This document shows, piece after piece, positions 9,238 through 11,732 of a DNA stretch of 64,000 bases. The position numbers were made by a program, and so were the translations under genes. The stretch spans positions 124,001 through 188,000 of the forward strand of contig NZ_KB906261.1 in the NCBI RefSeq assembly GCF_000381265.1, written 5' to 3'. The stretch comes from Curvibacter lanceolatus ATCC 14669 (lineage in GTDB: Bacteria; Pseudomonadota; Gammaproteobacteria; Burkholderiales; Burkholderiaceae_C). The notes beneath the pieces are model-generated. The model did no database searches, had not been told where the DNA came from, and saw only the letters and a list, made by a program, of their open reading frames with translations. Positions within the stretch are counted from its first letter, which is position 1. Each line of letters begins with the position of its first letter.

Positions 9238-10299
9238 TCAGCGCAGGTGGCCCCAGAACAGCAGGGCGTCGCGCTCGTCCACCGACAGTGACACGGGTGC
9301 CCCCACCGGCAGCAACACCTTGGTGGGCACATGACCGTGCGGCAGGCCGGTCAGAACCGGCACCTTGAGCTGGCTGCGCAGCCATTGCACCACCGAGTCC
9401 AGCTTGAAGCCCTTGTCGTGGGCGGTGAGCTTGTATTCGTTGAACTGGCCCAGCACGATGGCCTTCTGACGGGCCAGCAGGCCGGCGTGCAGCCACTGCG
9501 TGAGCAAGCGCTCCAGGCGATAAGGGTGTTCGCCGATGTCCTCGAAGAACAGCACCCCGCCCTTGATGTCAGGCAGGTAGGGGGTGCCGATCAGGCTGGA
9601 CAGCACCGCCAGGTTGCCGCCCCACAGCGTGCCCTGCTTGACCGTGAAGGGCTTTTGCACCGGCGCCGCGGCTGCGGCGGCCGTGCCCTTGCGCGGGCGT
9701 GGCAGCTCCCAGCCGGCACCCTCGCCATGGCCGCTGAACAGGTCGTCCAGGCAGGCCAGCATGATGTCGTCGGGCTCTTCTTCGGTGCCCAGATCGGCCC
9801 CCAGGGCCGGCCCGGCCCAGGTGATGGCGCCCGTCTTGGCCAGAACGGCGTTCTGGAAGGCGGTGAAATCGCTGATACCGACAAACTCGGTGCCACGCTC
9901 GATGGCCTTGGCGATCGCTTTGTAGGGCAGCTGGGGCAGCAGACGCGTCAAGCCATAGCCGCCGCGCGAGATCAGAGCGATGTCGGCCCCGCTGGCGGCC
10001 GCCCGGCTGATGGCGGCCAGGCGGGTTTCGTCATCGCCGGCGAAGCGGGTGTGGCTGGCCAGCGCGTCGGGGTCGATCTCCACCTCATGCCCCATGGCAC
10101 GCAGCCGGGCCACACCACGGCGGAAGGCCGCCTTGTCGCGCACCGCGCTCGAAGGCGAGAAGATGTAGATGTGCTTGGGGCCGTGGTCGTGGCCGCAGGC
10201 GGCGTGGTCGTGATCGTCGTGGTCTGACAAAGTGCTTGTCCGCCGGCTGGGGGCCGCGGCTCCGTGGTTGGGCGGTGGCCTGCAGCCACCGGGGTTCAT
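9238..10299 (-). CDS. ldcA: LD-carboxypeptidase (peptidase family S66) with His/Asp-rich N-terminus
   Basis: Cytoplasmic murein tetrapeptide carboxypeptidase that trims the terminal D-Ala during peptidoglycan recycling. The 353-residue frame shows the nucleophile Ser143 in GISDFTAF, the [11 protein letters not shown] loop before it, and the Glu and His of the triad in the C-terminal half ([15 protein letters not shown]). Family members have about 300 residues; the extra N-terminal 40 hold a metal-binding-like DHDDHDH...CGHDHG run. The ATG at 10299 overlaps the stop of the TadA fusion (ATGA), which favours this long start; an in-frame TTG just before SDHDDHDH is an alternative. It has no signal peptide. 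Confidence 0.88.
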
Positions 10300-11732
10300 G
10301 GCCTGAAGTATTCCACAGCCCGGCGGGCCACCGGCTCGCCGTGCTCTTGGACGAAATGCCCGGCCTCGGGCAGCACCCAGGGCTCCGGGCAGTCACGTAT
10401 CTGTTGGCGCAGGCGCTGCATCACCGGCAGGCCCAGCACCGGGTCGGCCGCCCCCACCACCAGCAGGCTGCGGCCTGCCCATTGTTGCTGCCAGAAATCG
10501 CGCGCCTGGCGCGACAAGGCGGCCCCGGCGGAGTCCGGGTGCTCGGGCACCATGGGCGGAAAGGCCTGCAGCGCGGCGCGGTGGCCACGATCGGGAAACG
10601 GGGCGTTGTAAGCCGCGCACTCCGCTGCGCTGAGGCTGGGCACGGCACGCGCCATCAGGCGCCCCACATCGAACAAGGGCTTGCTGCGGCACATCTCGCG
10701 CCAGGCCAAAAAGCCTTTGGAAAGGGGCTCTTCGCCAGTGGCCAGCAGCGTGTTCATGGCCAGCAGACCCTGGTAGCGCTCGGGCTCGGCCATGGGCAGG
10801 GTCAAGCCCAGGATGCCGCCCCAGTCCTGCACCACCAGCACCACGCGTTGCAAATCCAGGCGCTGCACCAGCTCCAGCAGCACCTGCCGATGCCATTCGA
10901 AGCCGTGGGCCGCCGGCTTCTTGGGCTTGTCGCTGCGCCCAAAGCCCGGCATGTCGGGGGCCACCACGCGGTGGCCGGCCGCCAGCCACACGGGCAGCAT
11001 GTGGCGGTACAGGTAGCTCCAGCCCGGGTTGCCATGCAGGCACAGCCAGGTGATGGGCGCCTGCACCGGCCCTTCGTCGAGGTAATGCAGGCGCAGGCCG
11101 GCCAGGGCGGGCAGATCGCTCAGGTAACGGGGTGCCCAGGGGTAGCCCGGCAGCTCGGCAAAGGCGCTGTCGGGTGTGCGCACGGCATCGTCGCGCAAGG
11201 GGTGGGCGGCCTTGGCCTGCTCGCGCTGGGCCGTGCGCCGGGCCTGAAAGAAATGCTGCAGCGCCACACTGCAATCGTGTTCGGCCACGCCGCCCTGCAC
11301 CGTGGTCTGGTGGTTGAGCCGGGCCTGGGCAAACAGGTTGAGCACCGAGCCGGCCGCCCCGGTCTTGGGTTCGGCCGCACCGAACACCACGCGGGCCAGG
11401 CGGGCCTGCAGCAAGGCCCCGCTGCACATGGCGCAGGGCTCCAGCGTGACGTACAGACTGCAGCCGTCGAGCCGGTAATTGCCCAGGGCTGCACCGGCCT
11501 CGCGCAGCGCCACGATCTCGGCGTGGGCACTGGGGTCGTGGCGGGCAATGGTCTGGTTGTGGCCCCGGCCGATCACCCGCCCGTCCTTGACCACCACCGC
11601 GCCCACCGGCACCTCGCCGGCGGCCGCGGCCAGCCGGGCCTCGGCCAGGGCCAGTTGCATGAAGGCGTGGTCGATGGCGGACTGTGGGTCAGGCAGCACC
11701 GGGTCGATGGTGGTGGTCGTGGTGGTCGTCAT
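10296..11732 (-). CDS. tadA: tRNA adenosine deaminase TadA fused to a haloalkane dehalogenase-like hydrolase
   Basis: A two-domain protein of 478 residues. Residues 18-170 are TadA, the essential enzyme turning adenosine 34 of tRNA-Arg into inosine: zinc ligands His70 (with Glu72 as proton carrier, HAE) and Cys100/Cys103 in PCAMC. After a linker, residues 200-478 form an alpha/beta hydrolase very like subfamily I haloalkane dehalogenases such as DhlA: nucleophile Asp303 in VVQDWGG, halide-binding Trp304, a second Trp344 in FLAW, Asp430 and His459 in [10 protein letters not shown]. All expected catalytic residues of both domains are present. The N-terminus is a run of seven Thr. It starts 7 bases after the small upstream gene and overlaps ldcA by 4. 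Confidence 0.88.

Follow-up and report, generated by a model that had tools for sequence, protein, structure and literature searches.

Retention and repeated decay of a haloalkane dehalogenase domain fused to the tRNA deaminase TadA in Comamonadaceae-type bacteria

In Curvibacter lanceolatus ATCC 14669 the wobble deaminase TadA is joined to a haloalkane dehalogenase (HLD) domain of subfamily I, the catalytic residues of which are intact. Related fusions have lost these residues repeatedly, and parts of the domain that they retain are constrained at the level of the protein. It is probable, on comparison of the sequences, that the HLD domain acquired a further, non-catalytic function linked to TadA, after which the dehalogenase was lost several times. 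The retained parts would then serve TadA. The window referred to below is the whole stretch of 64,000 nucleotides that was analysed, and positions are counted along it.

The fusion gene and its two active sites

The fusion gene lies on the reverse strand and reads from an ATG through 478 codons to a single stop, with no internal stop codon. An earlier note, made from the window alone, had proposed that TadA is joined in frame to a complete HLD domain in one protein of 478 residues, and this is confirmed by the open frame and by two NCBIfam models that both score above their cut-offs. Pfam concurs, with a deaminase and an Abhydrolase_1 domain. The features of the gene and of its downstream neighbour are as follows.

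9238..10299, reverse strand: ldcA (LD-carboxypeptidase; PF17676, PF02016), downstream of the fusion
10296..11732, reverse strand: TadA-HLD fusion gene, 478 residues, single open frame
11208..11672, reverse strand: TadA domain, residues 21-175 (NCBIfam NF008113, 187.3 bits, cut-off 150)
11172..11201, reverse strand: linker of the PLRxDALRTP type, residues 178-187 (alignment of fusions)
10302..11186, reverse strand: HLD subfamily I domain, residues 183-477 (NF002043, haloalkane dehalogenase PRK00870, 301.9 bits, cut-off 265)
10917..10934, reverse strand: SDKPKK, residues 267-272, including the fusion-specific Lys/Arg271 (alignment of fusions with unfused HLDs)
10821..10826, reverse strand: nucleophile D303 and halide-binding W304 (alignment with DhlA)
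10701..10703, reverse strand: second halide-binding tryptophan W344, in GFLAW (alignment with DhlA)
10560..10601, reverse strand: motif containing PFPDxGHRAA, residues 378-391, including the fusion-specific G383 (alignment of fusions with unfused HLDs)
10443..10445, reverse strand: catalytic acid D430 (alignment with DhlA)
10356..10358, reverse strand: catalytic base H459 (alignment with DhlA)

A frame error or a chance join is excluded, as the frame is open in many independent assemblies, including the fusions of the same genus. The N-terminus begins with a threonine-rich stretch of 10 residues (11703-11732, reverse strand). The true start codon might lie further downstream than this ATG.

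Among solved structures, the C-terminal part is matched best by the HLD 2xt0 (E 1.5e-107), followed by the DhlA entries (1.8e-88). The subfamily I set named in the earlier note, D303/W304, W344, D430 and H459, falls in full on the intended DhlA residues in these structure-sequence matches; the counterparts in DhlA are presumably residues 124, 125, 175, 260 and 289, which we take to be the nucleophile, the two halide-binding tryptophans, the acid and the base. The TadA zinc ligands H70, C100 and C103, which that note had also described as intact, are present together with the catalytic E72, and all four residues are kept in 144 of 144 distinct fusions. Membership of TadA was judged by an equivalog model above its curated cut-off together with the zinc ligands and catalytic glutamate, and membership of HLD subfamily I by a model above its cut-off together with the five-residue set; the window protein has all of these. 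The fusion is the sole TadA above the cut-off in its genome (one of four matches), and a tRNA-Arg(ACG) gene is present among the 30 loci examined of 51 tRNA places. Since both active sites are retained, the window protein should, as a fair expectation, carry out both A34 deamination of tRNA-Arg(ACG) and haloalkane hydrolysis.

Distribution and gene neighbourhood

Within the genus, all nine genomes match the fusion and six of them, the window's own included, carry it in full. The other five full fusions, from the eight remaining genomes, show 76-97% identity to it, one of them (G005) truncated at residue 461, where its contig ends, and the last three genomes (G006-G008) have a shortened form. 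Across the family, matches at E<=1e-20 occur in 238 of 250 genomes. A fused ORF is present in at least 132 of the 250, counted by eye among the matches listed, which extend to about E 6e-58, so that very diverged fusions could be missing from this count; 115 of these 132 were read. A stop or frameshift between the two domains in other isolates, which the earlier note had named as evidence against a fusion, occurs in none of the fused relatives read. A stop is flagged inside the match in two genomes of the family scan, G076 and G176, yet in G176 the ORF (L059) is open over residues 21-477. Twelve family genomes have no TadA match at E<=1e-20 (G014, G016, G050, G063, G098, G100, G111, G119, G130, G138, G217 and G230), and some of them are nearly complete (G050 and G217 at 100%). 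Of 20 TadA-only loci in the family, 19 end in short tails, in which a profile of the decayed remnant (see below) finds no match, and the remaining one (L287) is a fusion truncated where its contig stops.

At the level of the class, an HLD of subfamily I is found at E<=1e-40 in 12 of 185 genomes drawn, two of which belong to the window's family. The remaining ten, out of 183 genomes outside the family, hold it at 12 places and always unfused, as judged from the part of the ORF that precedes the HLD. A set of named genomes gave at least 27 fused loci among the matches listed (80 loci), in addition to one locus, L226, that begins at a contig end. The carriers are Polaromonas, Limnohabitans, Ottowia, Paracidovorax, Delftia, Comamonas, Tepidimonas, Malikia and Lampropedia, along with a Rhodoferax MAG and other MAGs, and those listed with an unfused TadA are Oxalobacteraceae, Sphaerotilaceae, Polynucleobacter and others. 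From its spread over family, class and named genomes, the TadA-HLD fusion is a Comamonadaceae-type trait.

In the window the ATG of ldcA overlaps the stop codon of the fusion. An ldcA gene follows on the same strand in 56 of 62 fusions with an intact dehalogenase and in 78 of 82 decayed fusions; among TadA-only loci it does so at 17 of the 20 from the family and at 19 of 52 others. These counts include some loci ending at contig ends. As ldcA adjoins unfused tadA too, the pairing of the two genes seems to predate the fusion, and the HLD would have entered between them. A scan for promoters and terminators near the fusion gene gave nothing useful. Upstream of the fusion, at 12746-16314 on the reverse strand, are genes for an outer-membrane efflux protein and a MacB-type ABC exporter.

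A single origin of the fusion does not emerge from the trees. In that of TadA, the decayed fusions L111, L145, L175 and L176 are placed among unfused TadAs and the unfused L200 among fusions, and on a further tree the label fused or unfused changes seven times. The shared R180, K271 and G383 would favour one origin. The scenario envisaged is that an HLD-I gene inserted between tadA and ldcA in an ancestor of a Comamonadaceae-type lineage and became joined in frame onto the C-terminal helix of TadA.

Loss of the dehalogenase in related fusions

The alignment brought together 121 fused proteins, the window's included, and 27 from named genomes, which gave 144 after four identical sequences from named genomes were removed; the duplicate L009, L226 and the partial L274 were dropped before the counts. 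A fusion is called decayed when it lacks the full set of D303, W304, W344, D430 and H459. By this definition 62 of the 144 distinct fusions are intact and 82 are decayed. The nucleophile is absent from 71 of the 82 decayed fusions, and D430 and H459 are both absent at their aligned places in 73. Only two decayed fusions, L090 and L171 from Delftia, keep the Asp/Asp/His residues; their W304 is replaced by aspartate, and they may be altered rather than dead hydrolases. L069 has glycine at the position of the nucleophile and the remaining four residues intact.

The losses extend beyond single residues. The C-terminal 84 residues find a match at all 62 intact loci (E<1e-3) versus 16 of the 82 decayed loci (E<0.1), and at three of the latter (L079, L109 and L128) the match lies outside the frame of the fusion. 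At L079 (G197:C1:3863500-3867800) a different frame of the same strand holds the match to the end of the hydrolase (E 1e-7), probably reflecting a frameshift inside the hydrolase domain; the match at L109 is weak and on the opposite strand, and that at L128 is weak (E 0.04-0.06). The idea that decayed tails are frameshifted full genes is thereby rejected, an off-frame C-terminal match being seen, of 82 loci, only at L079 and doubtfully at L109 and L128. In many decayed fusions the cap has become shorter. The distance from SDKP to PFPD is 108 residues in 48 intact fusions versus a median of 74 (range 48-125) in 73 decayed ones, and the length after the PFPD motif is 87 versus a median of 43 (2-152), spacing counts that leave out 23 rows from named genomes. 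Among these 73, the protein ends within 12 residues of the PFPD motif in 15 and within 45 in 43. The smallest remnants comprise about 170 residues. Over residues 177-395 the mean identity is 42% among decayed remnants versus 74% among intact fusions. In L121 (G073) a Glu-Gln repeat is inserted where the nucleophile elbow was lost.

None of eight decayed proteins scanned passes the NCBIfam HLD model (53.9-203.9 bits versus 265), which two of two other intact fusions pass. All eight pass only the TadA model in NCBIfam, so that the HLD remnant is easy to miss. Pfam Abhydrolase_1 is above its cut-off in seven of ten decayed proteins scanned; in many remnants a portion of that fold can thus still be discerned. 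One genome, G049, has a decayed TadA fusion together with a separate, residue-complete HLD-I gene (L086, L087), and in six others (G052, G077, G079, G182, G184 and G237) there is an additional match at E<=1e-20; a separate HLD gene might therefore make up for the decayed domain in some genomes.

How often the dehalogenase was lost was read from trees, since a count of sequences is no count of events. On a tree of the TadA domain, built with 161 rows by a quick method, the label intact or decayed changes 24 times, and starred branches force five of these changes. Among the starred forks that join an intact to a decayed sister are L051/L084, L162/L069 and L038/L096. A tree of TadA with the N-terminal half of the hydrolase, a part that may draw fast rows together, gives nine changes, four of them forced. 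Both states occur within seven genus codes (g1, g16, g55, g117, g124, g125 and g130). At L279 (G164:C15:1-2100) TadA ends straight after its C-terminal helix, amounting to complete loss of the domain. This locus groups as sister to the intact fusion that shares its genus code (SH-aLRT 90), and two species with that code match the full fusion, such that the loss of the whole domain is fairly well placed. The HLD domain is therefore dispensable on an evolutionary scale.

Residues retained after decay and their constraint

Across the decayed group, 40 hydrolase columns retain an identity of 80% or more. Three positions distinguish the fused from the unfused form, judged against a small set of 18 unfused HLD-I sequences. 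A basic residue, Lys or Arg, occupies position 271 in 144 of 144 fusions versus 1 of 18 unfused HLDs. G383 is present in 143 of 144 versus 0 of 18, and is kept while the rest of the domain decays. R180 is found in 139 of 144 fusions (62/62 intact, 77/82 decayed) and in 4 of 18 unfused proteins, 8 of the 18 being gapped there. The exact sequence SDKPK[KR] occurs in 61 of the 62 intact fusions and in 73 of the 82 decayed ones, with ten exceptions such as SDQPKK, SDKPRQ and SDKPKQ. The residues H233, D260, S267, D268, H281 and P378 are conserved in decayed fusions and in unfused HLDs alike, and hence part of the retained set may be fold core. The mean net charge of residues 183-300 is +0.8 in intact fusions, +0.4 in decayed fusions and -2.6 in unfused HLDs, a small shift by which the N-terminal half of the fused hydrolase is the less acidic.

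Constraint was estimated by pooling Nei-Gojobori values over 15 decayed sister pairs, a crude estimator without a codon-bias model. The conserved columns were chosen on sequences less than 60% identical to the pair, which gave 36-39 remnant columns per pair. The dN/dS of the decayed remnant is 0.040 in conserved columns, 0.37 in the other columns and 0.31 overall; for TadA, with the same pairs and the same rule, the values are 0.038, 0.27 and 0.16. The motif columns of the remnant are therefore constrained as protein to the same degree as the conserved columns of TadA, and the remnant over its whole length is more relaxed than TadA. A DNA-level element as the cause of the conservation was rejected, since dS is 0.43 in the conserved remnant columns versus 0.46-0.58 elsewhere. 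Single decayed pairs (n=19) give remnant values of 0.135-0.49. In intact pairs (n=10) the dN/dS of residues 177-395 is 0.06-0.16, so the hydrolase is strongly constrained in intact fusions and its reaction presumably still matters there.

A possible role for the retained parts

After the fusion, the HLD domain would have taken on its non-catalytic role through the linker PLRxDALRTP, the loop SDKPK[K/R] and the segment PFPDxGHRAA. Such a role would dispense with the nucleophile, the cap and the C-terminal acid and histidine, and hence those parts could be lost repeatedly. The likeliest form of the role would be either an extra basic contact to an arm of the tRNA or a structural brace of TadA. 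As a tentative proposal, somewhat short of probable, the HLD may have been taken on in Comamonadaceae to give the wobble deaminase an additional grip on tRNA. The RNA role would then have replaced the chemistry, making of a degradative enzyme, several times in parallel, a shortened pseudoenzyme that assists tRNA editing, and the intact orthologues, the window's among them, would represent the starting state. K/R271 and R180 are basic residues specific to the fused form, as would be expected of a tRNA-binding accessory domain, and the linker begins where the C-terminal helix of TadA ends. A narrower form of the same idea takes a substantial if minority share of the best explanation. Here the retained parts would be a brace for folding or dimerisation on which TadA became dependent by constructive neutral evolution, making no direct contact with RNA. 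The constraint data fit this equally well, many of the retained residues belong to the fold core common to unfused HLDs, and the shift in charge is weak. Against the brace, the universal Lys/Arg271 and the near-universal Arg180 suit RNA or an acidic partner better than a buried support, a point that is not decisive.

The alternatives that deny any tie to TadA, or that give the remnant a chemistry of its own, fare less well. The fusion and the HLD-I set described in the earlier note stand, and the meaning of the fusion, which that note left open between a regulatory or tRNA-related role and a gene merger, is where the relatives now speak against a mere merger retained for dehalogenation. Were the protein a plain bifunctional merger, with the HLD kept for dehalogenation alone and the fusion meaningless for tRNA editing, the 62 fusions with all five residues and the strong constraint on their hydrolase would follow readily; yet the catalytic set is lost in the other 82 and specific parts survive there at a dN/dS of 0.04. 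That decayed fusions keep fusion-specific residues under TadA-like constraint argues against this account, which is considered unlikely. It is still harder to regard the decayed tails as functionless, neutral leftovers on their way out, a view that is scarcely tenable. Their dN/dS is relaxed outside the motif columns and overall, they suffer deletions and truncations, and L279 has lost the domain completely, all of which such a view would predict, but the motif columns evolve as slowly as the conserved columns of TadA at ordinary synonymous divergence, and position 271 is basic in every fusion despite the low average identity of the remnants. A new catalytic activity built on H233, D260, S267, D268, H276, H281 and D381 can be imagined, given that decayed fusions conserve these polar residues. 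However, unfused HLDs share most of them, where they are presumably not the catalytic residues, and much of the fold is missing from the remnant, making a new activity decidedly improbable.

Relation to known systems

Compared with the usual bacterial TadA (NF008113), the fusion has the same whole TadA domain with its HAE and PCxxC residues, but its C-terminal helix continues into the linker and a 295-residue HLD domain. With DhlA and 2xt0 it shares the nucleophile, acid, base and both tryptophan positions, and it differs in the attachment to TadA and in K271 and G383; DhlA also has glutamate where the fusion has Asn235. The decayed tails resemble pseudoenzymes of the NDRG type, NDRG being an alpha/beta-hydrolase pseudoenzyme, in possessing the fold without the catalytic residues. 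In contrast to these, the decayed tail is a domain of a tRNA-modifying enzyme, is often truncated and is found beside intact orthologues.

A parallel may lie in the eukaryotic ADAT2/3, which is likewise a TadA-family deaminase with added parts: ADAT2 has a C-terminal basic KR-motif that is required for tRNA binding and is missing from bacterial TadA, and the N-terminal domain of ADAT3 is an added tRNA-binding part (PMC9643335). The added parts themselves differ, that of the fusion being a former enzyme for which RNA binding is suggested by the residues it retains. No description of a TadA-HLD fusion was found in the literature searched, the coverage of which was partial, and an earlier mention in the 2018 mining of HLDs is possible. 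A use case of EnzymeMiner 2.0 is stated to have excluded HLD candidates with additional Pfam domains (PMC13355053), and an exclusion of this kind may help to explain a lack of study of such fusions.

The fusions form a natural series that runs from a catalytic fusion through a near-complete copy without the nucleophile (L069) to the short remnants, and, if the proposed role is correct, the series would show how a metabolic enzyme turns into an accessory of an RNA enzyme. TadA is the parent of the adenine base editors, and a natural C-terminal addition that may alter its binding of tRNA is thus of practical interest.
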